From Bacteroidota bacterium (lineage in GTDB: Bacteria; Bacteroidota; Ignavibacteria; Kapaibacteriales; UBA2268), in NCBI GenBank assembly GCA_004322215.1, contig SCSM01000013.1:1-64000 (forward strand): a stretch of 64,000 nucleotides of DNA, written 5' to 3'. This document shows, one piece after another, positions 4,225 through 61,122 of this stretch (its first letter is position 1; each line of letters starts with the position of its first letter). The notes under the pieces are model-generated. The model saw only the letters and a list, made by a program, of their open reading frames with translations, was not told where the DNA came from and made no database searches. The position numbers were made by a program, and so were the translations under genes.

Positions 4225-4669
4225 GCCAACTCCACTTGATTATGGCTATTAAGTCATTTCGTAAAAATTTTTAATAATGAAAACCCTCGATTCCGTAAAA
4301 TGATAAATTAAACGGATTCTGACTTTATTTATTGGTGAATTTAATAAATAAGTTATAATAATTGACGAGTAAAAATTGTCATTTTACTAACGAATCACAA
4401 ATGGTTTTGCTCCCTTTACAATTTGTAGTTGTTACTACGATATTAAAACCTGCCGAATATTTTGAGACATCAAGTTTCAACACATGAATTTAATATTTGA
4501 CCTAATTAATTGTTCATTGTGAATTTTAAATTATAAATTATATAAAATTATATTTTGTTTTCAAATAAGAAAGTAATACATTAATCGTCCTAAAAAAAGT
4601 ATATTGAAATATTAAATAGTCGGCATAAATTTTTCGGGCTGAATAATGATAATTAAGTAAAATATTTTT
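4225..4669. other. Divergent intergenic region, 445 bp
   Basis: This very A+T-rich stretch lies between two divergent genes for large exported proteins and must hold both promoters. On the plus strand an FCB-type promoter can be seen at 4604-4633. No convincing promoter was found for the minus-strand protease gene. A weak 5-bp hairpin (GTAGT-TGTT-ACTAC, 4425-4438) is present. No short ORF with a ribosome binding site and no RNA gene was recognised. Confidence 0.5.
4604..4633 (+). promoter_or_regulatory. FCB-type promoter for the Ycf48-like gene
   Basis: TTG at 4604-4606 is followed by 19 bases and then TAAATTTT at 4626-4633. This fits the Bacteroidota primary-sigma pattern TTG-N19-TAnnTTTG except for the last base. 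It lies 36 bases before the ATG at 4670. The leader has no clear Shine-Dalgarno, only an A/T-rich stretch, which is common in this group. Confidence 0.55.
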
Positions 4670-10708: not shown

Positions 10709-13700
10709 ATGACATCAAGAAAAGAATTAATTTTATCATATTTGAATGATATTAAATCTGCAAATAAAGAATTAATTAAAAAGGAACACTTCAAGGACCT
10801 CCTTAATAAATTATACTCTGAAAATGATGAAATTCTTAAAATCATAAATAAAATCAGTAAAGGTGCCGAGACAACAATTTTAAACATACCAAGAAAAGAC
10901 AAACTTCATCGTGGCAGTGCCGATACATTATATAATAAAATTATCATCGAGTTTGAAAATGATTTAAAGACTTCATTAAATCATGCAAAAGAACAGTTAG
11001 CAGGATATCTTTTAGGAAAATTCAATTCAGGCGAAGGTTATAATTTTACTTTAATTGCATCGGATTTTATTAATTGGAAAATTTATTCTCCTGATGTTTC
11101 ATGTCTTGAAAAACTTGATAGTATAAAAGAAGATGAACTAATTTTAAATGAAATCAGTAGTGTTTCATTTACCTTGAACGAGAATAATACTGATGATTTC
11201 TACTTCTGGCTCGACCGCTTCCTGTTTAAAACAGAAAGAATAAAAGCAACTCTTAAAAGTGTAGAAGAAGCATTCGGACATCATAGTAATGTTTTTATAG
11301 AATGTTTTCGTGAATTAAAAAAGTGGTATAATAATGCAAAAAAATTTGGCGAAGTTCAGGTTGCATTCGATGAATGGTCAAAATTTTTAAGCATTGCATA
11401 CGGCTCTTATGAAGCAACCGATGAGAATTTTATGATTCATACATATCTGAGTGTATTCTCAAAAATGCTTGCATATTCGATTATTACAAATGATGAATTT
11501 ATTAATGATGATGAAATGAAAGATATCATCAGCGGTCAAATATTTAATAATAATAATATTAACAATTTTGTTGAAAATGATTTCTTTTATTGGGTAAAAA
11601 ACGAACGGATATTTAAAAATCTAAAGAAAGTGTTTCGGATAATCGCACAGGAAATATCTGCTTATGATTTTAAAAATGTCGATGAAGATGTGATGAAAGG
11701 GGTTTACCAGGAATTAATTGATTTAGATACCCGGCATACACTGGGTGAATACTATACTCCCGACTGGCTATGCGAAAGAATTGTCAACGAATTTAATTTT
11801 AAAAATGATGATAAAATTCTTGACCCCGCATGTGGCAGCGGTTCATTTTTAAGAGCGGCAATACATAGGATGAAGCTATTATATCCGGCAAAACCTATTG
11901 ATGAATTATGCAATCAGATTTATGGTATAGATATTCATCCGCTATCAGTGCAAATATCAAAAACAACAGTTCTTATCGCATTATCTGAAGAATTATTAAA
12001 AAACAAACAGCCAATTCATCTTAATATTATTTTAGCAAATACATTACTTGCACCCGATGGAGTAAAAGACCTTTTCGGCGGGCAATTCAGCTTGACAATA
12101 GATAAAGAACAATATAAACTGAACACTCAAATTCTCGATGATGTAAGTTTATTCGATGAGGCATTAGATATTTGTGAAAAGGTAGCCGAACAAACACTTG
12201 GTCGGAAACAGGAAACAAAAGAGGAATTTGAAAAAACATTAAAGAAAATTTACATAAATGGGGGACTTACACAGCAAGTTATAGAGAGCTATTACACAAT
12301 ATATCTTGCATTTAAAAAAGTTAAAGAATCAGGTAGAAACAGTATTTGGAAATTTATTATTCAAAACCTGTACAAGCCATACTTCTTAGCAGGTAAATTC
12401 GATTATGTAATCGGGAACCCACCCTGGTTTACATACAGTTCAATAAAAAATGAGGAATATCAGGATATTCTAAAACAGATAGCAGAAAAGTATCGAGTAA
12501 AGCCAGAAAAAGTTGCAAATTTTCCTCACCTAGAAATAGCAGTAATATTTCTAGCATATTGCTGTAATTATTTTTTAAAGGATAATGGTAAACTTGGGTT
12601 TGTACTTCCAAGAAGTATATTAAATGCTGATCAACACGATAATACACGCTCAGGTAAAGCCCAGGGATTTCGTTTGATAAATATTTGGGATTTGATGGAT
12701 GTTACTCCATTATTTAATATTCCATGTTGTGTAATGTTTGCTATAAAAGTAAAAAATAATAGGGAATTACCGGCAACAGGTCTTGATGGATTATCTATTA
12801 ATGGAAAACTCAAGGAACATAATTGCCATTTGCCGGTAGCAAAAAAATTTTTAAAAGAAGAAAAATTAAAATGGTTTGTTGTTCAACATGGTCTGACATC
12901 AGCTCTTTCTACCACCAGGAAAAAGAAACAAAACAAAATTAATCTTTATAAAAAGAAATTTAAACAAGGTGCAACTATAGTACCTCGAACCTTTTATTTT
13001 GTTGAACTTGATCAGAAAAAACCACTGGATTTAATTGATAGAATTGTAAATTTAAAAACAGCAGAATCAATAATACCTGATACAAAGGAACCATGGAAGA
13101 AATATCATATGAAAGGAAGAATTGACAGCAGATTTTTATTCAGAACAGTTCTTTCCAAAAGTATTTTACCATTTTCTATATATAATCCAGATATGATAGT
13201 ACTACCAATTTTTATTAATAAAGATGAAAATAACAGAAAGACAATAGACATTAAAAGCTATGAGGAAATTCGCCGTGAAGGTTATATCTATACTTCAGAC
13301 TGGTTTTTTAAGGTTAATAATTATTGGGAACAATTAAAAACCGAGAAATCTAAAAAGATGTCACATATCAATAGACTTGACTATCACAAGGGTTTAACTA
13401 ATCAAAATTTGAATTTGCCATATTTGGTTTTATATAATGCTTCAGCAAAAGATGCAAATGCTGTAGTTGTTAAGAGAAAGGATTTTGACCTTGAATTTAT
13501 TGTGGAGAGTAAAGCTTATTGGTTTGGTACAACGAAAATTAAAGAAGCCAATTATTTAACTTCAATATTAAATTCAAGCGTATTAAATTCTTTAATAAAA
13601 GATTTTCAAACAAGAGGATTATTTGGTCCAAGAGATGTACATAAAAAAATACTTGACATTTATTTCCCTGAATTTGATAACACAAATAAAAAGCATCTTA

Positions 13701-13876
13701 GATTAGCTGAACTTGGTGAAAAGGCACATAAGAAATCAGAGAAATATTTAAAAGATAATCCTCCTAAACAAGAACTGACAACATTCCATCTTGGGAGAAT
13801 TCGTTTAACAATTAAGAATCATCTCAAATCCGAATTAGATGAAATTGATAAAATTGTAATGGATATAATTAAATAA
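10709..13876 (+). CDS. Solitary type IIG-like (Eco57I-family) N6-adenine DNA methyltransferase with N-terminal nuclease-like region
   Basis: This 1055-residue protein has the SAM-binding motif D-P-A-C-G-S-G-S at 372-379 and the catalytic N-P-P-W at 570-573, which identify an amino-methyltransferase of the gamma/Eco57I class. The C-terminal ~280 residues would be the target-recognition part. Near residue 70 the pattern R-G-S-A-D-T-L-Y-N-K-I-I-I-E-F-E, followed by H-A-K-E-Q-L-x-G-Y, looks like a PD-(D/E)xK nuclease core. Here the usual E-x-K is E-F-E, so cleavage ability is uncertain. No separate endonuclease, specificity or helicase gene lies beside it. It may be a self-contained type IIG restriction-modification enzyme or an orphan methylase. 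It looks A+T-richer than the following carboxylase gene, consistent with horizontal transfer. It converges tail-to-tail on that gene, leaving 8 bases. Confidence 0.85.
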   Translation: MTSRKELILSYLNDIKSANKELIKKEHFKDLLNKLYSENDEILKIINKISKGAETTILNIPRKDKLHRGSADTLYNKIIIEFENDLKTSLNHAKEQLAGYLLGKFNSGEGYNFTLIASDFINWKIYSPDVSCLEKLDSIKEDELILNEISSVSFTLNENNTDDFYFWLDRFLFKTERIKATLKSVEEAFGHHSNVFIECFRELKKWYNNAKKFGEVQVAFDEWSKFLSIAYGSYEATDENFMIHTYLSVFSKMLAYSIITNDEFINDDEMKDIISGQIFNNNNINNFVENDFFYWVKNERIFKNLKKVFRIIAQEISAYDFKNVDEDVMKGVYQELIDLDTRHTLGEYYTPDWLCERIVNEFNFKNDDKILDPACGSGSFLRAAIHRMKLLYPAKPIDELCNQIYGIDIHPLSVQISKTTVLIALSEELLKNKQPIHLNIILANTLLAPDGVKDLFGGQFSLTIDKEQYKLNTQILDDVSLFDEALDICEKVAEQTLGRKQETKEEFEKTLKKIYINGGLTQQVIESYYTIYLAFKKVKESGRNSIWKFIIQNLYKPYFLAGKFDYVIGNPPWFTYSSIKNEEYQDILKQIAEKYRVKPEKVANFPHLEIAVIFLAYCCNYFLKDNGKLGFVLPRSILNADQHDNTRSGKAQGFRLINIWDLMDVTPLFNIPCCVMFAIKVKNNRELPATGLDGLSINGKLKEHNCHLPVAKKFLKEEKLKWFVVQHGLTSALSTTRKKKQNKINLYKKKFKQGATIVPRTFYFVELDQKKPLDLIDRIVNLKTAESIIPDTKEPWKKYHMKGRIDSRFLFRTVLSKSILPFSIYNPDMIVLPIFINKDENNRKTIDIKSYEEIRREGYIYTSDWFFKVNNYWEQLKTEKSKKMSHINRLDYHKGLTNQNLNLPYLVLYNASAKDANAVVVKRKDFDLEFIVESKAYWFGTTKIKEANYLTSILNSSVLNSLIKDFQTRGLFGPRDVHKKILDIYFPEFDNTNKKHLRLAELGEKAHKKSEKYLKDNPPKQELTTFHLGRIRLTIKNHLKSELDEIDKIVMDIIK

Positions 13877-33444: not shown

Positions 33445-33474
33445 TATAGAGACGCATTGCAATGCGTCTCTATA
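33445..33474. repeat. Perfect 30-bp palindrome
   Basis: TATAGAGACGCATTG is followed directly by its exact reverse complement, with no loop. It lies in the 274-bp gap between the OmpA gene start (33225) and the stop of the first Rieske gene (33500). No T-run is directly attached. It resembles palindromic elements seen between genes in several phyla. It could end transcription in either direction or be a mobile palindrome. Confidence 0.75.
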
Positions 33475-33499: not shown

Positions 33500-33973
33500 T
33501 TAAATTGTTACTGTTAATATATTTGTTGAAGCGTTGAAGGAACTTGGCATTACCGTCAAATTTGTCGTAGCAGGACCATTTAAGACCACACCGTCATCTT
33601 CATTGAAAAATGAGCCGTGGCATGCACATAATATGGTTTTGCTGCCTGCATCGGGTAATTCCACTTCACAACCCTGATGCGTACATTTTGTATTGAAAAC
33701 AATATAGTTTGTTCCCGGAAGTTTAACAATCATAATCGGCATGTTTTCATTCAGGTTTTGATATTTGATTTTAACACCCTCATAATCGTTTAGCAATTCA
33801 GGGTATTGAGTAACATCTATATCTTTTTTGACATTTGCAATGACCGGGCTTTCATTTTTTTCACATGAAGTTACTAATCCCGTAATAAGTGTACCGGCAA
33901 TAGTAATACCGATAATCGAACCGGTCTGAATAAGAAAATTCCTTCTCCCAGATTTATAATCTGTTGATTCCAT
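33500..33973 (-). CDS. Tat-exported Rieske [2Fe-2S] lipoprotein (copy 1)
   Basis: The 157-residue protein has a twin-arginine signal (R10-R11-N-F-L-I) ending in a lipobox-like L-V-T-S-C37, so it is probably folded in the cytoplasm and anchored as a lipoprotein. Both Rieske boxes are intact: C97-T-H99-Q-G-C102 and C116-A-C118-H119-G-S. Cluster ligands would be C97, H99, C116 and H119, with a C102-C118 disulfide. It is a stand-alone electron carrier, unlike the Rieske subunit of a bc complex, since no cytochrome b gene is near. It follows a YceI-family gene by 45 bases. The same pair occurs again just upstream (34907-36122), with every cluster residue at the identical position number. Partner proteins are unknown. 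Confidence 0.9.
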   Translation of the reverse strand: MESTDYKSGRRNFLIQTGSIIGITIAGTLITGLVTSCEKNESPVIANVKKDIDVTQYPELLNDYEGVKIKYQNLNENMPIMIVKLPGTNYIVFNTKCTHQGCEVELPDAGSKTILCACHGSFFNEDDGVVLNGPATTNLTVMPSSFNASTNILTVTI

Positions 33974-34018
33974 TATATCTCTCCTTTTTTTTATTGATTT
34001 TAATTATAATATTCGGTT

Positions 34019-34696
34019 CTATTTACTCGAGTAAAAGAGATTAAATTCAATATTAATCACCTCTCCTACTTTGCTGCCAACAAGTCCCTGGATACCTGTG
34101 ATGTTGAAATCTTTGAGAGAGAGATCGAATTTTCCTGAAACGTTTAAAAAATCACCGGAAGCACGTTTTTTCGTATCTTCTGATTCTTTAATATATGTGA
34201 GAGTAACATTTGCATTAATGTTTTTCGATTTTCCGTGCATATTAAAGTTGCCGTTTGCAATACCTTTTGCAGTTGACCTTCCCTTCGATGCATCGGAATT
34301 TTCCAATTTTATATTGGATATTTTATCGAGTGTAAAAGAAATATTCGGATATTTATCGGCATCCATCCATTCATCGCTGTAAAGATGAGTATTGCGTTTC
34401 TGGATTCCGGTTTCCATTCCTTTCACCCTGACAGTGATAGTACCTTTTGCATTTTCAATATTAGATGGGTCAAGCCCAATAAATCCTGAAATTGCATCTG
34501 TGTTTACTGTGCCTCTCATATCTTCAAGCGGTGCGTTGCTTATGAAAATAATTTGCGGCTCATTTACTTTGCCGTTTAATTCAAACTTTTTTTCACCCGA
34601 TAAATTCAGATTGAATCCGGATGAATATGCTGTCTGAATTAATATTACAGCAAAAGCTATCGTTAATAAATTAGATTTTTGTTTTAAGTAAGTCAT
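34019..34696 (-). CDS. YceI-family periplasmic lipocalin-like protein (copy 1)
   Basis: The 225-residue product has a signal peptide (about 1-25, ending A-Y-S-S). A YceI-like domain follows: G-F-I-G-L-D-P-S-N-I-E-N-A-K-G, M-D-A-D-K-Y-P-N-I-S-F, G-N-F-N-M-H-G-K-S-K, and S-G-D-F-L-N-V-S-G-K-F. YceI proteins are periplasmic beta-barrels; a homologue binds a long polyisoprenoid, and family members often sit beside cytochromes. The gene directly precedes a Rieske lipoprotein gene. Its ribosome-binding region shares TTCAAAGGGGGG with the haem-barrel gene at 37863. It is a paralogue of the gene at 35430-36122. Ligand not known; a quinone or carotenoid-like molecule would suit the redox context. Confidence 0.88.
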   Translation of the reverse strand: MTYLKQKSNLLTIAFAVILIQTAYSSGFNLNLSGEKKFELNGKVNEPQIIFISNAPLEDMRGTVNTDAISGFIGLDPSNIENAKGTITVRVKGMETGIQKRNTHLYSDEWMDADKYPNISFTLDKISNIKLENSDASKGRSTAKGIANGNFNMHGKSKNINANVTLTYIKESEDTKKRASGDFLNVSGKFDLSLKDFNITGIQGLVGSKVGEVINIEFNLFYSSK

Positions 34697-34906
34697 TTTT
34701 TACCCCCCTTTGAATAAAAATTTAGCTATGTCTAATATGACGATTCATTTTTTTTTCAATTGTTAATTTTATAAATTTTTTTTAGTGAATTCTCTCTCTT
34801 TTTGTTTATAATTTGAGAGAATTACAATATTTAAGTTCAATTCGTCATGCGGGGAAAAAAATAAATTTGAGAACCGGTTTCATAATTTGAAAAATTTAAA
34901 ACCAAA

Positions 34907-35380
34907 TCAAATTGTAATTGTCAATATATTTGTAGCTGAATCGAATGATGTCGGGAACTGCTTCAAGGATTGACTTGCAGGACCAGATATTACAGAACCG
35001 TTTACTTCGGAATACACAGAACCATGGCATGGACAAGTGATTGTATGCGTTGCAGAGTTGGGAATTCCAACTTCGCATCCCTGGTGGGAACATCTCGAAG
35101 TAAGTGCGAGATAATTTCCTGCAGATTTCCTAATAACAATTACAGGCATGTTGCCATTCATATTGTCAAATTTAATTTTTACGGCACCGAAGTCGTTTTG
35201 CAATTCAGAATATTGAGTAACATCAATTTCTTTTTTTACATTTGTACTGATAGGATTGTCGTTTTGCTGGCAGGAAGTAATTAATCCCGGGATTGTTGCT
35301 GCTGCGATTCCCAAGCCGATTAATGTACCCGCCCGGATTAAAAAATTTCTGCGTTCGGGTGAAGAGTTATCATATTCCAT
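34907..35380 (-). CDS. Tat-exported Rieske [2Fe-2S] lipoprotein (copy 2)
   Basis: Same length (157) and plan as copy 1: R10-R11-N-F-L-I Tat motif, L-I-T-S-C37 lipobox, C97-S-H99-Q-G-C102 and C116-P-C118-H119-G-S. Box II here is the textbook C-P-C-H-G-S. Sequence outside the boxes has diverged, so both copies are long-standing rather than a fresh duplication. It follows a YceI paralogue by 49 bases. Two complete YceI-Rieske cassettes in a row suggest that each Rieske protein works with its own YceI partner, perhaps with different potentials or substrates. Confidence 0.9.
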   Translation of the reverse strand: MEYDNSSPERRNFLIRAGTLIGLGIAAATIPGLITSCQQNDNPISTNVKKEIDVTQYSELQNDFGAVKIKFDNMNGNMPVIVIRKSAGNYLALTSRCSHQGCEVGIPNSATHTITCPCHGSVYSEVNGSVISGPASQSLKQFPTSFDSATNILTITI

Positions 35381-35429
35381 TTTATCTCCAATTATTATTT
35401 GTCAATTATTGTTTATTAAATACAAGCGG

Positions 35430-36122
35430 TTAATTATTCATTTGTGTCTTACCTGCAAAAAATAACTCAAAATCTATATTAATAGTTTTTCCGACTTTAC
35501 TGCCAATCAATCCTTCGGTACCGTTAATATCAAAATCACTTAACTCTGCATCAAATTTGCCTGCAACACTAAGAAAATCGCCCGGAGTTCTTTTCTTAGT
35601 AAGTTCCGATTCCTTTATGTACGTTATTGTAACATCGAGGTTAATTGTTTTTGTTTTCCCATGAATGGTTATGTTTCCGCTTGCAATTGCGTTGGCTGTG
35701 GCTCTGCCCCTTGCAGCATCCACACTTGCAACCTTTACACCTGATAAACCCAGCAGAACAAACGAAATATCAGGATATGATTCCGCATCGAGCCAATTTT
35801 TTCCGTAAAGATGACCATTCCTTTTTTGAATTCCGGTTTCCATTCCCTTTACTTCAAAACTGACATTACCGTTCACATTCTCTATGTTAGCCGGGTCGAG
35901 GTTAATTGTACCGGAAATAAATTCAGAGTTAACCGAGCCCTTAATATCTTCGAGCGGTGCATTGCTTGTAAAAAAAATCTGCGGCTGACTGACTTTATAA
36001 TTTAATTCGAATTTCCTTTCGCCGGAAGTGTTCAAATTGAAGCTTGTCGAATATGCCAATTTAGTGGATATAATTAAGAGTAATAATATATTGAAAATTG
36101 AAAATATTTTAATTTGAAACAT
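35430..36122 (-). CDS. YceI-family periplasmic lipocalin-like protein (copy 2)
   Basis: The reading frame is open from 36203, but the ATG at 36122 directly starts a normal signal peptide (M-F-Q-I-K-I-F-S, ending A-Y-S-T), so I place the start there (230 residues). YceI features match copy 1: G-T-I-N-L-D-P-A-N-I-E-N, L-D-A-E-S-Y-P-D-I-S-F, G-N-I-T-I-H-G-K-T-K, P-G-D-F-L-S-V-A-G-K-F. The protein sits in the periplasm and probably binds a hydrophobic ligand. Rieske copy 2 follows after 49 bases. Confidence 0.87.
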   Translation of the reverse strand: MFQIKIFSIFNILLLLIISTKLAYSTSFNLNTSGERKFELNYKVSQPQIFFTSNAPLEDIKGSVNSEFISGTINLDPANIENVNGNVSFEVKGMETGIQKRNGHLYGKNWLDAESYPDISFVLLGLSGVKVASVDAARGRATANAIASGNITIHGKTKTINLDVTITYIKESELTKKRTPGDFLSVAGKFDAELSDFDINGTEGLIGSKVGKTINIDFELFFAGKTQMNN

Positions 36123-36309
36123 TTTATTAACCCTATAATAAATTTTAGTAACAACTAAAAAGACGATTGCGTTTTTTTCTATTGTATGTCGTGAATATTC
36201 CAAAAATAAACGGAGATTCCTTCTAATAAAGGATTCCCCGTTATTTCATACTTTTAAATAAATATAAGATTTTCCGGTCTAAGTTTTTTAAAGTAACAGA
36301 ATTAATTAC

Positions 36310-36648
36310 TTAGGTCTTTTTAACTCTGATTTTCTTTTTGTGCTTGTAGTGCATAAAAGTACTTAAACCGCCAACAACAAACAGAAAGCCAAAAATCGGA
36401 GCGACACCAATCAAAGCTTTGTATGAAAAAGAATCGTCGTTCGGCAATAAACCAAGCCAGAAGCCGCTTTTCCATACAGTCTTTGTCGTTTCGGTTCCGA
36501 AAAGTGGGTCAACCGTTTTTGTAACGACCGGTTTTTTATCTTTAGAGAAAATTATGGTTTCTCCAAGGTCTTTGCAGTCAACATACCATCTGAATAATAA
36601 TGGCAGTATAAGCAAAAAACTTATATATGATACAAATTTCCATTTCAT
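36310..36648 (-). CDS. Small two-helix inner-membrane protein of the redox cluster
   Basis: The 112-residue protein has hydrophobic helices at about 5-22 and 79-100 and a very basic tail (H-K-K-K-I-R-V-K-K-T). Between them is a ~55-residue polar loop that should lie outside the cytoplasm. I do not recognise a family. It lies 42 bases after the haem-barrel gene and 187 bases before the YceI/Rieske cassettes on the same strand, so it may help assemble or connect these envelope redox proteins. That is inference from position alone. Confidence 0.7.
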   Translation of the reverse strand: MKWKFVSYISFLLILPLLFRWYVDCKDLGETIIFSKDKKPVVTKTVDPLFGTETTKTVWKSGFWLGLLPNDDSFSYKALIGVAPIFGFLFVVGGLSTFMHYKHKKKIRVKKT

Positions 36649-36690
36649 AAATACACTCCCTGTAATTTATAATAATAAAAATAATAAATA

Positions 36691-37863
36691 CTAATAATAA
36701 AGGTGAAGCTGTACGGCATATTGTGCTTCGTAACCTTCAGCCCATTCTTTGTCATAAATTCTATACTCGGGTCTTAGCTCGATATACGGTAATGGGAAAA
36801 TATGCAGACCGATTAAGTAATGGTCTGTCGTCCAGTTTGCTTTATTGTGCAAATCATTTGTAAATGCTTTTTCAAATCTTGCTTCCACTAACAATCCATC
36901 GTGAAGCTGATAAGTTAATCCAACGAGAAAGTTCCTGGACTTTCTCAGGTCTTTTTTATCAGTCCATAAAATTTCAGTATTAATGGCAAGTTCATCTGTC
37001 AATCCCGCATTAAGGAATGCAGAGGTAATATTGAAATCATTACTGACATAATAAGAACCTCCAAGTTGAAGATTGATTTTATTTTCAAAAAATCTCTGCC
37101 ATACCGAAGCATTAGCTGCTATTGCCATCTTTTTTTTATCTACTAACGGAACAAAATTTCCGGTAGTGTCCATAATAATATTTTCTGCCATGCTTTCCGA
37201 TTTAAAAACCCCGGCAGTCAAACTCAGCCATTTCAATCCCTCGTAACTGATTTCGGCACCGTATTCCGCAAAATCCGGCGGAATCAATTGCGGCTGACCT
37301 CCTCCCGGAACCTGTGAAACAAGTAAGGTGTGGTCGTCATAGCGAGTACCAATCGGCGGCTCGAAATATCCGGCTTTCAAGGATGGATAGGTAATGTCCG
37401 GCTGCAATATTAAATATCCGGTCCATGCTTTTTGACCGGGATACCTTGTTTTATAAACGTCGTAAAAAATATTATAAGAGCCACCGAGTGTCATCCAATT
37501 GAATGGCTTTAAAACAAGATATGGTGTTGCCTGCATACCGAAATATTTTCTAACAGGATTATCAGAAGGTCCGATTTTAGCTGTCTCATATCTGAAATCA
37601 AAACCGAAAATCAATAATTTATTGAAATATTGATTTGTGCCGGCAACAGTTTTAAAGAAACCTGCCAATCCTATATCATCGGGATTCAGCAGCCCGACAT
37701 CATTTCTTGCGTACCAGCCAAGGTCATTTCGCACTCCGCTGCCAAGCGGATTGACATGGCAATTAATGCACTTATTTCCTGACAACATTGAATATTGCGG
37801 CAATGCAAATGCATTGAATGAGAATAAAATAAATAAAATTATTATTCTGTTTATTTGAATCAT
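36691..37863 (-). CDS. Outer-membrane beta-barrel with N-terminal haem c motif
   Basis: The 390-residue product has a signal peptide (about 1-20, F-A-L). C32-I-N-C-H36, a single c-type haem site, follows at once with H-V-N-P-x-G-x-G-x-R. The remainder is rich in alternating aromatic/polar strands and ends in the aromatic residues L-H-L-Y-Y, as outer-membrane barrels do. Known porin-cytochrome conduits use separate multihaem cytochromes, so a barrel carrying one haem at its periplasmic end is a more compact arrangement. Similar annotated proteins exist in related phyla, but I cannot name the family. It is the first gene of the 37.9-33.5 kb cluster. A GGGGGG ribosome-binding region precedes the ATG. 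Confidence 0.75.
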   Translation of the reverse strand: MIQINRIIILFILFSFNAFALPQYSMLSGNKCINCHVNPLGSGVRNDLGWYARNDVGLLNPDDIGLAGFFKTVAGTNQYFNKLLIFGFDFRYETAKIGPSDNPVRKYFGMQATPYLVLKPFNWMTLGGSYNIFYDVYKTRYPGQKAWTGYLILQPDITYPSLKAGYFEPPIGTRYDDHTLLVSQVPGGGQPQLIPPDFAEYGAEISYEGLKWLSLTAGVFKSESMAENIIMDTTGNFVPLVDKKKMAIAANASVWQRFFENKINLQLGGSYYVSNDFNITSAFLNAGLTDELAINTEILWTDKKDLRKSRNFLVGLTYQLHDGLLVEARFEKAFTNDLHNKANWTTDHYLIGLHIFPLPYIELRPEYRIYDKEWAEGYEAQYAVQLHLYY

Positions 37864-40951: not shown

Positions 40952-43900
40952 TCAAATAGAATAATATCTTCCCTTAGTTTTAATAAAGCTGATCAAATCG
41001 CTGAATATTGGAGAATATGAAAGCACATCGGCAACTCCGAGAAGAATCAGTTGCTCTTTAGCTCTTGTTATCGCGACATTTAGCTTTCTATCAACTTTAG
41101 TGTCGCCGAGTTCCAGCATTGACTGAAGGTTTTTTAGTTCATACAGATTGTTAATCGCAAAAGAAATGATGATAATATCTCTTTGTGAACCCTGATAACG
41201 TTCTACAGTGTCAACAGTAACATATTCTGTTATATGTTTCGGAATAAATTTATAAATCTCAGTACACTGAGCCCTGTAAGGTGCTATTATACCAACAGTT
41301 CTAACATTGAAATCATTGCCATATTTATCAAAAATTGTTTGAACTATCTCAGCAACTTTTTCTGCCTCTGCTTTATGCACTTTTGCATTATCTTCCGGTT
41401 TGGATTCATAAAAGAGTATGCGCGATGATGATAGTTGTTTTTCGATTTTATTATCTGACTTACTATCAAATTGTGTCCAGGGGGCTTTCTGTTTCGCATA
41501 CATTATTTGCAGTTTCCCCTCATAAAATCTCGTATTGGGAAATTCCTGAAGAAGCTCTTGCATCCTTGCCTGATGAGTCAGCATACAATAAGCATTATCC
41601 CAACCGTTTGCAATGCAACAGCGTATTAGCCGTTCAAATAAGGAGCCGGAGAGATTTGTCAGATGAATTTTATTAAAATGTTCAATGTCAACTTTCGCAT
41701 TCTTTTGATTTTGGACTACCACTGCCGGCAATTGCTTTTCATCTCCAATCATTATGAATTTATCAACCAAAGTTAGAATTCCTGCTATCTGCGGCTCGAG
41801 AATTTGAGACGCTTCATCAATTATCGCAATGTTGAATTTCTTGATTTGGAATATTTCCGGATTTGTAATTGCAGACGTAACAGTAGAAACAAAAACTCTT
41901 GTTTTTTTGACCAGCTTGTACAATTCCCGTATTTCCATTGTCTCGGCAAGCCGTGCAATCAATCTTGAATCATTTTCTGTTGATTCTTTCGAGCCAATGC
42001 GCAAATAATCAAACTGATTATCTTTCAAATCAACTATTTTTTCACTTGCTATATCCCCGAGAGCAATACATATTTCATCAACTGCACGGTTTGTATAGCC
42101 GAGGAGTAAAATATTTGAATTATCCTTTTTATAAGATTCTTCCGTTAATGCTTTCAGCATATAAGCAGTTTTGCCTGTCCCCGGAGGTCCCTGGATTAGA
42201 AAATAATTTTTAGCCGATAATGCCTTAACGAGAATTTCTTTTTGTGGTTGATTCAGATAATAATTATCAATATTCACTGTTTTTTCAAACTCGGGTTTTT
42301 TTAATCCAAGTATTATATTTCTTTTTGAATCCTCAGCAAGCATTAATCTATAAACAGATTGAAACAGGTTCCTGGTCGATGCATCAATATAGTCCGGTTC
42401 GATTACCCATAGCTCCTCAGAATCGAGCAATTTTGAATTTGCCTGCTTATTTCTCAAACTTACTTTTATTTTCTCATTTCCGATTTCCCTTATCGAGCAT
42501 TTAAGGATTTGCTGTTTGAGCGGCTCTGTTACATTCCCGTTTTTTATTCTGTATAATACACCGATGTCACCCTTACGGAATGATGTAACGTCAGGTGTTT
42601 TTTCAGTCCGTTTGAAAATCAGATGAAAATTATCGAAATCCGATTCTTCTTTGATAAGTTGCAGATGGGACAATACAGCATAAGAATTCTCCTTGTCTTC
42701 GATTGTGTCTTTCCAAAGAGATGAGAATCCTTTGCTGCTTTCAGAGCCGTTAGTTCCATGCTTCAGTGATTGAGACTCTCTCAAAATGAATGATAGGTAA
42801 TTCTGAAAATAAACTTTCAAAATTTCTTCCGATTCATTATAAAATTTCTCAAATGCCGAAAGATTATTTTCATCGAATTTCGGAAGAATGCCGAATTCAT
42901 CTTTATTGAATTTATCGAATATGGAGAAATTACCTTCAGCAATCTGTCTTTCATAAGCTACAATTTCATTCCTGATTACCATCGCTTCCTGTTTCTTCTG
43001 AATAACATTCGGTGCATTACGCAGTGGCTCATCATTGGTTTGCGAGTATAATATCTGGGAAGTGCCGGTGCGGTTTTCGAATGACGAGTCGAGCAAAAGA
43101 TTATAGCAGATTGCCTGGATATAATTACTTTCCCACATTCCTGTCTTAATAAATCTTCCGTCATTGAGTATGATTTTCAGGTCTTTGCCCGGTGGTCTGC
43201 CGGATTTCAATTCGATAATGTTTTTCCTATTGATTTCATCTTCAAATTCAAGCAGCACATCGAGTCGTCCCTGGAGACCATAATCAGATGATATGAAGCT
43301 TGGCTCGATGCTAAACCTGTCATAATCGAGATTGACTGTTATTTCCTTCAGATTATTAAAATGTGTTCTTACATTATCTTTAATCAACTTAGTTGCTGCC
43401 GGTTCATCGGATGCAATCGCAAAAATCTGCAATGGCTTTATCCTCAGTGCATTTTCATAGACATCATCAAAATTACATTCTTTGTTATTCAGTATATCAT
43501 CGAAGCAGTAATTGATGATATTGCCTGTAACAGCAGCAGGATTAGAAGATTTTAATTTCAATTTCGACAGAAAGTAAATCAAGCAATTAGAACCCTTATA
43601 TTGAAAACATTCGGCTATATCCGTAACATCAACGAGATTATCCGGCTCCAGCACTATAATGGTATTGTTTCCTGCTCTGAATGTATCCTTGATTTGTGAA
43701 TCCCTTTTGACTGAAAATATATTCAGCACTGCACCCTTCCAGCAAAGTGTGAATAGCTTATCCCATGGCTCTCTGAAATGTAATTTTATTTTTCCAAACT
43801 CTTCTGACTCGCAATTCAGCATATAGTCAATTGAATTGTCGGGGTAAGTTTTAACTTGCCCCTTCTCAATTATAACCGCACGAATAAATTCGATGATATC

Positions 43901-44323
43901 TCCTGTACGCTTGTATTTTGGTTGTGGGATTCTAACATCTAAAGATTGAATTTTATCTTCATCAATTAATTCCGATTCACCGGATAAAAAGATTTTTATT
44001 AAATCTATGAGAGTTGTGTATGCATAATTAATATGCTGAATTTGACATTCAAAATTTAAATCCTTTCTAATTCTTTCGGCAATAGAAGTGAAAGTTCTCA
44101 CTTTTGTTGTTAATACTTCCGGGAATTTGTACTTATCTGATAAATAAACCGACCTTGCGAAAACAGATGAAAAGTATTGTTTCTCGCTTTCTGTAAGTTT
44201 GATAATCAGTTTGCGGAAAATGGTTCTCAATGAGAGTAATTTTTTTCTGAGGGTTAATTTCTCATCTTCAAAAATGGTGTTTATTTCATTCAGAAAATGT
44301 TCTGCAGTTTCCTGATTTATCAT
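40952..44323 (-). CDS. Dna2-like nuclease-helicase fusion (PD-(D/E)xK plus superfamily 1B helicase)
   Basis: This 1123-residue protein joins a RecB-like nuclease with a DNA/RNA helicase. The nuclease residues are visible: G-R-L-D355, E371-L-K373 and Q403-x3-Y407. The helicase has Walker A G-P-P-G-T-G-K-T at 712-719, a DEAD-like motif I-I-D-E-A-S-Q near 830, T-V-E-R-Y-Q-G-S-Q, and V-A-I-T-R-A-K near the end. This is the order in Dna2, which trims 5' flaps and resects breaks. The first ~300 residues are not recognisable. The ATG overlaps the recJ stop codon (ATGA), so translation is coupled to the RecJ exonuclease. A role in end resection or fork repair is likely. A defence role cannot be excluded, but the housekeeping partner argues against it. 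Confidence 0.85.
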   Translation of the reverse strand: MINQETAEHFLNEINTIFEDEKLTLRKKLLSLRTIFRKLIIKLTESEKQYFSSVFARSVYLSDKYKFPEVLTTKVRTFTSIAERIRKDLNFECQIQHINYAYTTLIDLIKIFLSGESELIDEDKIQSLDVRIPQPKYKRTGDIIEFIRAVIIEKGQVKTYPDNSIDYMLNCESEEFGKIKLHFREPWDKLFTLCWKGAVLNIFSVKRDSQIKDTFRAGNNTIIVLEPDNLVDVTDIAECFQYKGSNCLIYFLSKLKLKSSNPAAVTGNIINYCFDDILNNKECNFDDVYENALRIKPLQIFAIASDEPAATKLIKDNVRTHFNNLKEITVNLDYDRFSIEPSFISSDYGLQGRLDVLLEFEDEINRKNIIELKSGRPPGKDLKIILNDGRFIKTGMWESNYIQAICYNLLLDSSFENRTGTSQILYSQTNDEPLRNAPNVIQKKQEAMVIRNEIVAYERQIAEGNFSIFDKFNKDEFGILPKFDENNLSAFEKFYNESEEILKVYFQNYLSFILRESQSLKHGTNGSESSKGFSSLWKDTIEDKENSYAVLSHLQLIKEESDFDNFHLIFKRTEKTPDVTSFRKGDIGVLYRIKNGNVTEPLKQQILKCSIREIGNEKIKVSLRNKQANSKLLDSEELWVIEPDYIDASTRNLFQSVYRLMLAEDSKRNIILGLKKPEFEKTVNIDNYYLNQPQKEILVKALSAKNYFLIQGPPGTGKTAYMLKALTEESYKKDNSNILLLGYTNRAVDEICIALGDIASEKIVDLKDNQFDYLRIGSKESTENDSRLIARLAETMEIRELYKLVKKTRVFVSTVTSAITNPEIFQIKKFNIAIIDEASQILEPQIAGILTLVDKFIMIGDEKQLPAVVVQNQKNAKVDIEHFNKIHLTNLSGSLFERLIRCCIANGWDNAYCMLTHQARMQELLQEFPNTRFYEGKLQIMYAKQKAPWTQFDSKSDNKIEKQLSSSRILFYESKPEDNAKVHKAEAEKVAEIVQTIFDKYGNDFNVRTVGIIAPYRAQCTEIYKFIPKHITEYVTVDTVERYQGSQRDIIIISFAINNLYELKNLQSMLELGDTKVDRKLNVAITRAKEQLILLGVADVLSYSPIFSDLISFIKTKGRYYSI

Positions 44324-55907: not shown

Positions 55908-58643
55908 ATGAAATCTGATTCTACTTCATTTTTCGGCAGATTATTTGCCATTCTGCTGATGTCTGTTTGTATTTATGGTTTTGCTAATGCAGAACCGAAG
56001 AAGGTGGTTCTGATTGAAGAATTTACAGGAACATGGTGCCCACCATGCGGTTCATCAGGGAAACCAATGATGGCTCAAATACTTGAAGCACACCCTAATG
56101 ACGTTATTGGCGTTGAATTACACGTATCTAACGGGGACCCTTTCGAAATACCTGAAAATTTAACATTAGCAGGTACTTTTGGGGTTTCCGGTGTACCTTG
56201 TGCAACAGTTGACAGAACATATAATTTAGCAGGTACAGGCGCCATGGTTGGTTATGTTCCATCCTGGACTGCAATGGTAAACGAAGCTTTAAGTAAACCG
56301 GCAAAGGTAGATGTAAAACTTTTCTATACGATTAATAAGTCAAGCCGAAATCTAACTGCAAACATTGAAGCCACTTTTGCTGAAGCTGCATCAGGCAATT
56401 TTAATTTCAATGTTTTTATAACTGAAGATGATTTAATCTACGATCAAGCCGGAGTAGGTCCAAATTATCATCATAAGCATGTAATGAGGGATATGCTGGG
56501 CGATGTATGGGGAACATCAGGTAAAATTCCTTCGACCGTAGGTATAGGTCAAACTTATAAACACACATATAACTTTACGATTCCTGCCGGATGGAATATT
56601 GATAATCTTAATTTCATCGGAGTCGTTCAGGAGTATGACGCTACTTATGCTGATGTGAAAAAGATATTAAATTGTGTCAGAGGAACTGAAGGACAGCCCG
56701 ATTTGGAATTCACCTGCACTGCAGGTCAAGAAACTTCGGTTAAAGGTGTTGGAGTTCCTGCACAAAGGGAATTTGAAATTAAAAACCTGACAAATTCTCA
56801 AAGAACATATACTATTAATGTTACAAAATCATCCAGGACACCATCCAACTGGGATGCAACCGTTATTCTTCCGGGCGGCGCAAAGAAAACTTCTAAGGAT
56901 GGTATATTAACCGAGGAACTAATAATCAATGCCGGTGCAAATAAAAATGTAACACTCCAACTAACACCCGGCGATATGATAGGCATCGGCGATGCTGAAA
57001 TTTCAGTAAAAGAGAAAGGCAATCCGAGCGGTACCGAAGGCAAGGGTTCTCTCACTATTGCTTCTGCTGAGATTGATAAATTCCAGGTAATTGACGATGC
57101 TGCAGACGGGGCAAAAAGTTTAGGTCCCACGATTACCAATTCAGGTAATACGGGATATTTTGATATTAATGCAGATGAATTTATTCCGATTTATTCTCAA
57201 TTTAATAAATTGAACACAGTAGTTTGGACTCTTGGTGAAGAAGGAAAAATAAGTGATGAAGAAGCATCATCAATAAAATCAATTATTGATGGTGGAACTC
57301 CTTTATTAATTTCCGGAGCTTTATCAGTACCTGAAATGGAACTTAGTTCACCGAGTCTCATGTATAAAATAGGATGTTCTTGGGGAGGTGATTGTTACCA
57401 GGGAGAATCATCAAGTTGGAATTTTTCAATTGTCGGATATCCGAATGACCCAATTACAGATGGATTTGACAAAACATTCCGTAAAGACCATTGGATTACA
57501 CAAGCAATAGATATTAATAATCCAAAAACTATTCCAATACTGAAGCATAAATTTGCGGACACAGTAGTTGCAGTTCGTTCTGAAGTATCAAAAGCAAGAA
57601 TCGTCCTGATAGGTTTTAATCCAATAATTATTACAAATATTACAGCACGAAACAACCTGATAGGCAATTCTTTGAAATGGCTTAATGGTATCGGTCCAAA
57701 GATAGCAAGCTCTGTATCTGAACTTGATTTTGGAGATGTTGCGGTTAACAGCGAAGTAGATAAGACGTTCGATATAGAAAACACAGGTGAAGAAACTTTG
57801 AATATTACCGAAATGACTGTTGACTGGGAAGATTCTGATAACTTCTTAGTCGTCAGCCCAAGCTTACCTGCCAGTATTCAGCCGGGAATGTCCGAAACCG
57901 TTACAATACGTTTCAAACCGGCAGACCCGTTTGGTTACGATGCCAATATGAATATTAAATCGAATGCCGTAAACGGTAATGAACTTATCGTTAATCTGAA
58001 GGGTAATGGAACGGCAGCCGGTGCAGGTGCCAAGATTGAATCGAATCTCCAGAGTGTCGAATTCGGCGAGGTGCCGATTAATTTACCGCATGAATCCATT
58101 GTTGAGATTTCAAATACAGGCGACCAGCCATTGAACATTGCTTCAACGAATATACAATCGAACACAGGCGGTATTTTCGAAGTTGTGTCTCCGGCTTCTT
58201 ACCCGGTAACGGTTCAGCCGGCAGCAAAGCTTGATATTAAAGTAAAATTTGCTCCTTCCGAGAAGATAGCTTACACTGGAACACTCGAAATCAACTCGAA
58301 TGCAACAAATGGCAATAAACTTACGGTTCCATTAAACGGAACAGGCGGTAATGCTGTCGGTGTTAATGACGATGACCTGAGTTCGATTTCATTGAGTGCA
58401 GGACCGAATCCCTTCAGTGCAAGAACCAATATTAAATATACAGTCGCAGGTAACGGCGGAATGGTTGATATTAGCGTTATCGATGCAAGAGGCATGGTTA
58501 TCAGCCGGCTTGTATCGAAAAATCTTCCTGCAGGTGAATACAGCCAGGTATTCGATGCAAAGGGATTAAGTTCAGGAATGTATTATGTAATCGGAAAAAT
58601 TAACGGGAAATCGGTTCAGTTACCGATTGTAATCGAGAAATAA
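55908..58643 (+). CDS. Omp28-related thioredoxin-like protein with choice-of-anchor D domains and T9SS tail
   Basis: The 911-residue protein has a signal peptide (about 1-28). A thioredoxin-like domain begins E-F-T-G-T-W-C44-P-P-C47, followed by V-I-G-V-E-L-H and V-S-G-V-P as in Omp28-type proteins. The C-x2-C pair is intact, so it could be an extracellular disulfide enzyme or a binding protein. From about 600 there are two choice-of-anchor D domains (D-F-G-D-V-A-V-N-S-E, E-F-G-E-V-P-I-N). A T9SS type A sorting domain ends V-I-E-K. It is probably surface-displayed. The next gene repeats the anchor-plus-T9SS plan. Confidence 0.86.
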   Translation: MKSDSTSFFGRLFAILLMSVCIYGFANAEPKKVVLIEEFTGTWCPPCGSSGKPMMAQILEAHPNDVIGVELHVSNGDPFEIPENLTLAGTFGVSGVPCATVDRTYNLAGTGAMVGYVPSWTAMVNEALSKPAKVDVKLFYTINKSSRNLTANIEATFAEAASGNFNFNVFITEDDLIYDQAGVGPNYHHKHVMRDMLGDVWGTSGKIPSTVGIGQTYKHTYNFTIPAGWNIDNLNFIGVVQEYDATYADVKKILNCVRGTEGQPDLEFTCTAGQETSVKGVGVPAQREFEIKNLTNSQRTYTINVTKSSRTPSNWDATVILPGGAKKTSKDGILTEELIINAGANKNVTLQLTPGDMIGIGDAEISVKEKGNPSGTEGKGSLTIASAEIDKFQVIDDAADGAKSLGPTITNSGNTGYFDINADEFIPIYSQFNKLNTVVWTLGEEGKISDEEASSIKSIIDGGTPLLISGALSVPEMELSSPSLMYKIGCSWGGDCYQGESSSWNFSIVGYPNDPITDGFDKTFRKDHWITQAIDINNPKTIPILKHKFADTVVAVRSEVSKARIVLIGFNPIIITNITARNNLIGNSLKWLNGIGPKIASSVSELDFGDVAVNSEVDKTFDIENTGEETLNITEMTVDWEDSDNFLVVSPSLPASIQPGMSETVTIRFKPADPFGYDANMNIKSNAVNGNELIVNLKGNGTAAGAGAKIESNLQSVEFGEVPINLPHESIVEISNTGDQPLNIASTNIQSNTGGIFEVVSPASYPVTVQPAAKLDIKVKFAPSEKIAYTGTLEINSNATNGNKLTVPLNGTGGNAVGVNDDDLSSISLSAGPNPFSARTNIKYTVAGNGGMVDISVIDARGMVISRLVSKNLPAGEYSQVFDAKGLSSGMYYVIGKINGKSVQLPIVIEK

Positions 58644-58648
58644 AACAA

Positions 58649-58698
58649 ACCAACCTTTAAATCCCCTCTTTATTTAAGGAGGGGATGGCGGGGTGGTT
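58649..58698 (+). terminator. Terminator-like palindrome after the Omp28-like gene
   Basis: ATCCCCTC (58661-58668) pairs with GAGGGGAT (58679-58686). Outside it AACCAACC and GGTGGTTT form a second, imperfect stem. A palindrome with this text is common between genes in several phyla. No T-run follows, so its terminator role is uncertain. Confidence 0.5.
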
Positions 58699-58873
58699 TA
58701 AAAATTTAGAATTTTCAATTTAGAATGAATGATTAATATCAGAATTTGAAAATTTTTAAAAAAACAAAGTTCTTTTAAAATTTATTGAAAATTGAAAATT
58801 AGGAAATTGAAAATTAATATTAAAGTGAATCCCTGAAAGTTAAAATAATTCGGGGATTCTTTCATCATTAATA

Positions 58874-58902
58874 TTGAATGTAATATTATTAATATATGTT
58901 TA
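58874..58902 (+). promoter_or_regulatory. FCB-type promoter for the choice-of-anchor gene
   Basis: TTG at 58874-58876, 18 bases, then TATGTTTA at 58895-58902. It fits TAnnTTT(G/A). The ATG at 58921 follows TGGAG. Confidence 0.5.
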
Positions 58903-58920
58903 TACTCTTTTGGAGTTATT

Positions 58921-61122
58921 ATGAAAAAATTGTTTTTCTACTTTTTATTAATTATTCTTTTGGGCATTGGATTAGAAAAGGTTATAGCCGCACAGCAGTA
59001 TTATTATGTCGTGTTCGATAATCTTGATAAAATCGTAAACACGGAAGGTCAGGAATTAACAAATGCATTCGACCAGCTATACTATGACCCGATACACAAA
59101 TATCCTTTTGGAGATTATTTGATAAAACTTCCATTTTCCGATGCTACATTTACAAATTACAGAATCACAGACTTTGACCTTGCCGTTTTTCCAATGGGTG
59201 ATAAACCTTTGAATTTTTCTACTTCCGGTGGAATTACGGTTTTGAGTAAAATCAAGGAAATGGAAGCTGCCGGGAAAAGAGTGATAATTATTGGCAGGTC
59301 AATATTGAGGCAATCTCAAACAAGCCAGCCGGTACAGCAATTTTTATATGATTATCTTGGGGTTGATGAAGTTTTTATGGTTAATACAACGAGTGGAAGT
59401 AAATATGCAGGATACACAATCAACGGTGTTATTGATGATACACTTGCAAATGGGACAAGGAAATGGGGTAATCTTAAAAGAGGTGAAAATAATATTCCTC
59501 CTGCTGACCCATGGAGATGGGTAAGTGAGTTAGAAGCATTCAAAGTGAGACCTGACGATTGGAGATTTACCGTAATAGATTGGTTTTCGAAAGTTACAGA
59601 TGATGTTCAAATTATAAATTATCCGCCGACCGATACGATTATGGGTGTTCGTACACACACACCTCATTCAAAAATGGTCTTCTGGTGCTACGGGACTGAA
59701 TATCTTTGTGCTGTCGGTTCGATACCTCGCCATGCAACCGAGCTATGGTATGCTTTTAACTGGCTTTTGTTCGATGTTCCGAAAATCGGACCATATTTAC
59801 AGTCAGTGCCCAACCCGCTTCAATTTGGGGGCAGACAAATTGGTACTGATACAACCAAGAGAATTGTTATTACTAATTTTGGCAGGCAGGAATTAAAAGT
59901 TACAGATGTTTATGTCAACAATTTTGAAGACCCGGAACCGTTCGAAGTATTAGGTCCGACAAGTTTTAATTTACAGCCACTGGACACTCATTCAGTTTTT
60001 GTCAAATTTGCTCCGACCGAGGAAAAATCATATTTGGAAATTCTATCGTTCGAATCAAACTCCGGAGGAAATCCATCATTAATAGATATGGAACTCAAAG
60101 GAGTCGGCGGCAAAGACCCTGAGCAGGGACCAATAATTGATGTTGTTACCTCTGTTAATTTTGGTGAAGTGAAAATCGGTAGATACCAGGAAAAAGATAT
60201 TGTCATTCATAATATTGGCACAGCCCCTCTTATTATCAATTATAATAACTTTTCAAATAATGGTACAAATAACGGTAACGGTGCATTCACTTATAATGAT
60301 AGGAGAGCCGGTTTCCAGATTAATCCCGACAGCACATATACAATGGTGATTAGATTTACTCCTCATGAGGCAGGACTTACTTATAATGGAGAAATAAAAT
60401 TAGAAACTAATCAGAAAGGTGATAATCCTTTTACTTATATCAAATTAACCGGTAAGGGTGCAGTAGCTAAACCCAAAATGGTGCCATTTCCAACGTCTGT
60501 TATATTCGATACCGTATTGACAGGTTACAATAAGGAAATACCAATAACAATTAAAAATACGGGTTCAGCCGAGCTTGTGATAGATAGTATTAATTTTATT
60601 AGAAATGATTCTTCTGCATTCAGCATTACTGAAGGAGGTATGCCTGAAGGTGGAACTCCAATCACTGTATTACCGGTAGAAGAACATATTCTTAAAGTTC
60701 AGTTTACTCCTTCGGAAGAGTTGACTTACAATGCGACCATACAAATAGTATCCAATTACGAAGAAACACCTAATTATAATATATATTTTAATGGAGTCGG
60801 CAGGCAGGATACCGTGGGTGTCGAAGATGAATACGATTTTGCAGGAAATGAATTATTCGTAATGAAGGCAATGCCGAATCCGAATTACGGTAAAGCAATG
60901 CTGGAATATATACTGAAAGGTGATGTTCCGAGGAAAGTTGATATCTTCATTATTGATGTACTCGGCAACAGGATTTCCAATATATTGAAAACTAATCTGA
61001 ATCCCGGCGATTACAGGTGTGAAATGGATATGCAGGCAATTAAACTTGCTTCGGGTAATTATTACATTATCGCAAATGTAGGAGACTCCCAGGTGAGATT
61101 ACCGATTGTAATTTTGAAATAA
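58921..61122 (+). CDS. Choice-of-anchor D surface protein with T9SS tail
   Basis: The 733-residue protein has a signal peptide (about 1-24, ending I-A-A). A ~270-residue alpha/beta domain of unknown type follows (Y-Y-Y-V-V-F-D-N-L-D-K, R-V-I-I-I-G-R-S-I-L, F-W-C-Y-G-T-E-Y). Three choice-of-anchor D domains come next (Q-F-G-G-R-Q-I-G-T, N-F-G-E-V-K-I-G, I-F-D-T-V-L-T-G), then a T9SS type A sorting domain ending I-V-I-L-K. The first domain resembles a glutamine-amidotransferase-like or papain-like Rossmann fold only loosely. It ends in a strong terminator. Confidence 0.82.
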   Translation: MKKLFFYFLLIILLGIGLEKVIAAQQYYYVVFDNLDKIVNTEGQELTNAFDQLYYDPIHKYPFGDYLIKLPFSDATFTNYRITDFDLAVFPMGDKPLNFSTSGGITVLSKIKEMEAAGKRVIIIGRSILRQSQTSQPVQQFLYDYLGVDEVFMVNTTSGSKYAGYTINGVIDDTLANGTRKWGNLKRGENNIPPADPWRWVSELEAFKVRPDDWRFTVIDWFSKVTDDVQIINYPPTDTIMGVRTHTPHSKMVFWCYGTEYLCAVGSIPRHATELWYAFNWLLFDVPKIGPYLQSVPNPLQFGGRQIGTDTTKRIVITNFGRQELKVTDVYVNNFEDPEPFEVLGPTSFNLQPLDTHSVFVKFAPTEEKSYLEILSFESNSGGNPSLIDMELKGVGGKDPEQGPIIDVVTSVNFGEVKIGRYQEKDIVIHNIGTAPLIINYNNFSNNGTNNGNGAFTYNDRRAGFQINPDSTYTMVIRFTPHEAGLTYNGEIKLETNQKGDNPFTYIKLTGKGAVAKPKMVPFPTSVIFDTVLTGYNKEIPITIKNTGSAELVIDSINFIRNDSSAFSITEGGMPEGGTPITVLPVEEHILKVQFTPSEELTYNATIQIVSNYEETPNYNIYFNGVGRQDTVGVEDEYDFAGNELFVMKAMPNPNYGKAMLEYILKGDVPRKVDIFIIDVLGNRISNILKTNLNPGDYRCEMDMQAIKLASGNYYIIANVGDSQVRLPIVILK

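Follow-up and report, generated by a model that had tools for sequence, protein, structure and literature searches.

Gene set in the window

The window analysed is a 64,000-nucleotide stretch from a Bacteroidota bacterium of the class Ignavibacteria (contig SCSM01000013.1 of assembly GCA_004322215.1, positions 1 to 64,000) and is part of a 4.2 Mb draft genome of 47 contigs (G000). It contains six co-directional genes on the minus strand which encode, in this order, a haem-bearing outer-membrane barrel, a small membrane protein (TM2), YceI-1, Rieske-1, YceI-2 and Rieske-2, and which are discussed here as a putative outer-membrane electron gate. The order and the common strand, described previously in a sequence-only reading of the same DNA, were confirmed from the open reading frames (ORFs), and the YceI and Rieske families were confirmed by Pfam. 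The gene set lies between a methylpurine-DNA-glycosylase gene and an OmpA-family gene.

The barrel gene (36691..37863, minus strand, as are all features of the set) encodes a fused haem-porin of 390 amino acids (aa) with a signal peptide, recognised by inspection, one N-terminal CXXCH module and a 16-stranded outer-membrane barrel. The single haem-attachment motif (37756..37770) covers residues 32-36 and holds the only two cysteines of the protein, which agrees with the one haem site of the sequence-only reading. TM2 (36310..36648; 112 aa) is predicted to have two membrane helices with a short conserved loop between them. YceI-1 (35430..36122; Pfam YceI 3.5e-23) is an exported lipocalin-type protein of 230 aa when counted from ATG, while the ORF list begins it at an upstream TTG. 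Rieske-1 (34907..35380; 157 aa; Pfam Rieske 6.5e-14) carries a signal of the twin-arginine translocation (Tat) type, a lipobox Cys and the motifs CSHQGC and CPCHGSVY. YceI-2 (34019..34696; 225 aa; Pfam YceI 7.8e-23) groups with the single copy of the same-genus genome G002. Rieske-2 (33500..33973; 157 aa; Pfam Rieske 1.8e-9) has the same type of signal and lipobox Cys, and the motifs CTHQGC and CACHGSFF. The YceI-to-Rieske spacings of 49 and 45 bases reported before were found again.

A terminator-like hairpin with a U-rich tail (36200..36242; fold z-score -3.94) is located between TM2 and YceI-1, and a second terminator-like hairpin (33445..33474; fold z-score -4.36) closes the gene set. The former was found by the fold z-score, and the simple scan lists only the latter; the folding of the gap between Rieske-1 and YceI-2 was unremarkable (z -0.72). 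The idea that the six genes form one transcript is thus unsupported, and the strong hairpin with its U-rich run suggests that the set is likely divided into two transcription units. The common strand and the conservation described below still argue for a joint function.

Fold and distribution of the haem barrel

The CXXCH motif was present in all 51 aligned barrel homologues; DDH (residues 176-178) and H387 are further conserved positions of the barrel. No Pfam family was assigned to the window barrel, nor was a specific Pfam or NCBIfam model found among the 51 members. The AlphaFold model of the barrel, built with the 51 sequences, reached a predicted local distance difference test (pLDDT) value of 88.6 and consists of the N-terminal CXXCH region followed by 16 strands of at least 7 residues. 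The top VIA matches of the model were OprP (2o4v; Z 25.3, root-mean-square deviation 2.3, 281 aligned) and OprO (4rjw; Z 25.2), with the next fold at 23.1; a family missing from the VIA list was not counted as evidence. The Foldseek matches were 16-stranded porins as well, OmpU being ranked first and OprP fourth. When the PDB was searched by sequence with the profile of the barrel, no match fell below E 0.09. By its motif and predicted fold, the identification of the barrel as a haem porin is supported.

The barrel was detected in 46 of the 60 genomes in the set of relatives, which includes the window genome, and the profile search of 296 genomes of the phylum gave a match in 65. The nearest named relatives were found in metagenome-assembled genome records titled Ignavibacteriae (79% identity, groundwater), Ignavibacteria and Bacteroidetes, and many further ones came from records titled Kapaibacterium or Kapabacteria. 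In other orders of this class, the barrels are related over their full length (profile comparison probability 100%).

Rieske, YceI and TM2 proteins

Both window Rieskes have the twin Arg at position 10, cysteines at positions 37, 97, 102, 116 and 118, and ligand histidines at 99 and 119; the identical residue numbering of the Fe-S ligands in the two copies, noted already in the earlier reading, was verified by sequence and by alignment columns. In the set of 68 Rieskes, the Tat Arg pair was present in 65, the lipobox pattern in 55 and the cluster ligand motifs in 67. The window copies resemble the Rieske proteins of bc1 and b6f complexes in the Tat-type signal and the CxHxxC...CxCHxS cluster, both possess the disulphide cysteines and the Ser of bc1-type clusters, and PDB profile matches to b6f Rieske proteins were obtained. 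In contrast to bc1 and b6f Rieskes, they have a lipobox instead of a retained helix, and no cytochrome b gene adjoins them. No cytochrome b match was obtained among the window ORFs scanned with Pfam; the cytochrome b of the genome is located on contig C6 with a Rieske of its own.

The residues following CHGS are V-Y in Rieske-1 and F-F in Rieske-2. In bc1 mutants, the loss of the Tyr at this site lowers the redox potential, and a higher potential would accordingly be expected for Rieske-1. Since many Rieskes beside pentahaem genes are without the disulphide cysteines, the potentials probably vary. Acidic residues after the lipobox Cys were considered as a possible signal of surface export, but they were examined without a control set and were not used.

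The PDB YceI chains match YceI-1 with E-values from 2.5e-6. In the alignment of 15 YceI sequences, a GD pair (residues 182-183 of copy 1) is common to the 14 cassette proteins, and the third YceI of the genome retains only the Asp. Octaprenyl compounds, ubiquinone-8 or other isoprenoids have been reported as bound ligands in YceI structures (PMC9113575, in part). For TM2, no Pfam family was found above the cut-off; DUF2232 (E 8e-4) was set aside as it was below the family cut-off. The TM2 model (pLDDT 71; predicted template modelling score 0.44) was judged too weak for a fold search. TM2 may tie YceI to the inner membrane.

In BcnA-LcoA, too, the gene of an exported YceI protein is linked to that of a redox partner, and the window corresponds to this arrangement through both YceI copies (Pfam). 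The partners differ, however, the window having a Rieske lipoprotein, TM2 and a haem barrel, and no b561 being included in the cassette. The main rival explanation on this analogy is a similar envelope antioxidant, in which YceI would hold a quinol for quenching lipid peroxyl radicals close to the outer membrane, to be recharged or drained by the Rieske and the haem barrel. In mutants of BcnA, a YceI lipocalin of Burkholderia, and of the linked cytochrome b561, lipid peroxidation was increased (PMC9113575, in part). A haem-copper oxidase family was present in 30/30 TM2-bearing genomes compared with 24/30 of the others (Fisher p 0.024, uncorrected for kinship; the table was tallied by eye), which would also fit a protective role. 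An oxygen link derived from this family was rejected, as its presence in 54/60 genomes discriminates little. Against the antioxidant explanation, the Pfam scan of eight window ORFs gave no match to b561, many loci contain barrel and Rieske without YceI, and the related barrels join multihaem and cytochrome b561/NapC-like genes, with which respiration or external electron transfer fits better. The antioxidant function is considered rather unlikely.

Co-occurrence of the partner genes

The relatives of the barrel amounted to 112 stretches in the genome contig collection, the best 80 loci of which were kept for the neighbour counts. The counts were made with one barrel per locus in 78 of the 80 loci, L099 and L155 being without a called barrel ORF; they are lower bounds, as the ORF picking may miss overlapping small genes. 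Within four called genes of the barrel, at least 49 loci had a Rieske, 27 a YceI and 26 a TM2, each with a same-strand member, meaning at least one such partner gene on the strand of the barrel. In the 60 related genomes, YceI was found within 3 kb of 23/63 barrels, with about 0.3 expected. This test included 63 of the 69 barrel rows after four surplus pieces of split genes and two very short matches were dropped, and the 20 weakest rows of the YceI list were omitted. TM2 gave 33 matches in 30/60 genomes; 27 of these were within 3 kb of a barrel, 26 of a YceI and 31 of either. The co-occurrence of the families in other genomes, on which the sequence-only reading depended, was thereby established, and chance adjacency of barrel, Rieske, YceI and TM2 was ruled out by the neighbour counts together with the 3-kb test.

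The same partners were detected in other gene orders in Myxococcales-titled records and in one record titled 'proteobacterium': Rieske-barrel-YceI (L152), YceI-Rieske-barrel (L156) and barrel-YceI (L142, L144). Some of the record titles may reflect binning errors (e.g. L109, L136).

Some cassettes are adjoined by a large protein with immunoglobulin (Ig) repeats (label IG9; L059:303-3092, also L121, L126 and L084). In the protein of L059, a sub-threshold match to the sorting domain of the type IX secretion system (T9SS) and an N-terminal Cys-rich stretch ending in CH were observed.

Paralogous cassettes and duplication

In the tree of 91 barrels, all 22 barrels neighbouring pentahaem genes fell into one clade (100/100), which is nested next to the clade of the window (94/62, not strong) inside the wider family. 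The YceI label requires 13 changes on the tree, indicating frequent gain or loss of YceI. The window genome itself has a barrel paralogue on contig C20 (L039), which is 42% identical to the window barrel; it is preceded by a protein with five CXXCH motifs and followed by a small DHC-group protein and a small single-CXXCH protein. A Rieske was nearby in 11 of 15 pentahaem loci. At L060, a pentahaem lipoprotein gene is followed in turn by those of the barrel, a Rieske, a monohaem cytochrome c, a protein with 13 CXXCH motifs and a cytochrome b561/NapC-like protein with six. Across the cassettes the barrel is constant, Rieske is the commonest partner and the remaining genes are exchanged.

As an observation in its own right, L060:4424-11472 and similar loci represent a candidate operon for external electron transfer.

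By a further explanation, the barrel would be mainly a gated solute channel or a sensor of redox state or gas, and YceI-TM2 would move lipids to the outer membrane with no sustained electron flow. The nearest solved folds of the barrel are indeed substrate porins, and TM2-YceI pairs occur without a barrel nearby. The frequent neighbourhood of Fe-S lipoproteins and multihaem cytochromes is hard to explain without electron transfer, though, and a channel or sensor function is held to be distinctly improbable.

The tandem YceI-Rieske pair is, judging from the sequences, a duplication within the genus. In each of the same-genus genomes G001 and G002, a single YceI-Rieske pair occupies this place, and the two pairs match different window copies: a relative of copy 2 is retained in G002, and a relative of copy 1 in G001 and G003. 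The contig of G003 ends soon after YceI, so that a second pair is possible there. A general need for two pairs was ruled out, as single and differing copies are retained in the same-genus genomes. The duplication, to which the sequence-only reading had given weight, appears atypical and a genus-level event, and its importance is unsupported.

Putative extracellular partner in other orders

Thirteen loci were fetched from other orders within the class (L203-L214, L216), and in 5 of them a CXXCH protein of about 225 aa is encoded next to the barrel on the same strand. These proteins (L204:6120-6806, L205:5764-6438, L209:3098-3772, L211:6100-6762 and L212:6185-6859) contain an N-terminal module of the CxxCHxxxxGGGxxNxFG type, similar to that of the barrel itself, followed by Temptin_C and a T9SS sorting domain (TIGR04183). 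T9SS signals direct export to the cell surface; the Temptin_C protein is therefore probably located there. Its position beside the barrel is the best hint in the sequences that electrons might cross the membrane.

Separately, these T9SS-type Temptin_C proteins, whose CXXCH module is similar to the haem plug of the barrel, are possibly a family of surface cytochromes.

Comparison with Cyc2 and porin-cytochrome complexes

The closest analogue of the barrel is the iron-oxidising fused cytochrome-porin Cyc2, which was not named in the sequence-only reading. Cyc2 has one CXXCH and 16 strands, resembles the structures of OprO and OprP, and is characterised by the motifs AXPXFAR[QK][TY] upstream of CXXCH and PXL downstream (PMC8406198, in part). 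The window barrel likewise has a signal peptide, one N-terminal CXXCH and a 16-stranded barrel with OprO and OprP among the nearest solved folds, and an AxPx[FY]-like lead-in to the haem site was found as a loose pattern in 46/51 homologues. In contrast to Cyc2, its neighbours are Rieske, YceI and TM2.

Six of the weakest matches of the phylum search were fetched and turned out to be Cyc2-like proteins of 410-446 aa with an AxP x[FY][AS]RQT-type motif; the published Cyc2 motif is matched exactly in one of them and with a single residue changed in the other five. The hhalign comparison of the barrel with these six proteins extended over 116 columns, comprising the haem module and the first strands, with a probability of 88%, compared with 40% over 22 columns in the control profile comparison with a monohaem cytochrome. 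The membership of the barrel in Cyc2 was rejected by motif (0/51). By analogy, the barrel would work like Cyc2 and is possibly a distant relative through the haem module. Literature searches on Kapabacteria with extracellular electron transfer, and on Kapaibacter with Cyc2, gave no results.

In the genome G137, a protein that matches the Cyc2 motif exactly (L202:1851-3191, contig C107) occurs alongside a member of the present barrel family (L209, contig C83).

With the porin-cytochrome complexes (MtrAB, Pcc, Ext) the window shares an outer-membrane barrel and a c-type haem near genes of electron carriers. In those complexes, however, the haems are on separate multihaem proteins, whereas in the window one haem motif is fused to a 16-stranded barrel, and no separate multihaem cytochrome was present among the six genes according to the ORFs and Pfam. 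Mtr barrels have 26 strands (PMC8406198, in part). Ignavibacteria are known to have porin-cytochrome clusters of different types (PMC4245776 and PMC7399161, each in part), the porin models used being MtrB, OmbB, ExtB/ExtE and ExtI (PMC7399161, in part). In the literature collection searched, three papers contain both YceI and Rieske, and the titles and abstract beginnings of the literature pairing YceI with Rieske or cytochrome c contained nothing on their combination; the sequence-only reading likewise knew of no described system of this composition.

Proposed electron path

The haem barrel and the Tat-exported Rieske lipoprotein are interpreted as an outer-membrane electron gate similar to Cyc2, with a probability of about 0.5. 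The location of each protein, their mutual contacts and the direction of flow we infer as follows. A small redox partner would enter or meet the 16-stranded pore, and the single haem, presumably attached in the N-terminal plug at the periplasmic mouth, would exchange one electron with it. The Rieske [2Fe-2S] lipoprotein would be the partner for one-electron exchange on the periplasmic side. In the window version, YceI and TM2 would occupy the place which is held by multihaem cytochromes at the paralogous barrels, and YceI would probably carry an isoprenoid quinone between the inner membrane, on the side of TM2, and the Rieske. The quinone-carrier role of YceI is the boldest step, plausible from knowledge of the family and of nothing more direct. 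The full chain, in which a soluble YceI would shuttle quinone through the periplasm to the Rieske lipoprotein, and this would feed the fused haem-porin in place of a chain of multihaem cytochromes, is regarded as unlikely.

The sequence-only reading had proposed a short envelope electron path running from a lipid carrier through Rieske to a haem barrel. This path is partly supported, since the families belong together, the barrel is a haem porin by motif and predicted fold, and its paralogues are accompanied by multihaem cytochromes and mostly by a Rieske; its direction is unsupported.

Several observations weigh against the electron gate. The published Cyc2 motifs AXPXFAR[QK][TY] and PXL were each present in 0/51 barrel homologues, and the alignment with Cyc2 in the barrel part is limited to the first strands. 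YceI was not seen near 51/78 barrels, and 12/78 loci had no Rieske, YceI, TM2 or pentahaem gene nearby. TM2-YceI pairs with neither a recognised barrel nor a recognised Rieske nearby were found at L217-L219; given these barrel-free pairs, YceI may have an independent function. No Rieske stands beside the window genome's own paralogue (L039) or nearby in 4/15 pentahaem loci, so the barrel does not always go with a Rieske. The Rieske of L058 carries an insertion in the second ligand motif in the aligned set. The window cassette is without an extracellular partner, and Temptin_C was not found in the window genome; 20 Temptin_C matches were obtained in 15/60 related genomes of the order of the window, none of them on a contig with a listed barrel.

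If the full chain with YceI is real, it would be an alternative route for connecting the inner membrane with an outer-membrane electron gate, and the cassettes would be a natural exchange experiment in which barrel and Rieske are served either by haem wires or by a lipid carrier. If YceI is a quinone carrier, the broad YceI family would acquire a concrete respiratory role, and electrons would be delivered to the outer membrane without multihaem cytochromes. The widespread haem-porin family is without a specific Pfam or NCBIfam model, the outer-membrane redox chemistry of these lineages is little studied, and the recurrent partner genes make the haem-porin electron path testable.

Other genes in the window

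A large protein of the Eco57I/N6-methylase type (10709-13876) and a protein with AAA and Dna2-like domains (40952-44323) are encoded elsewhere in the window, and each is a possible defence or repair gene. Repeats of the Ig, fibronectin or ASH type are found in very large proteins at 163-8899 and 55908-61122, and a T9SS sorting domain was detected in the repeat protein at 163-4224.

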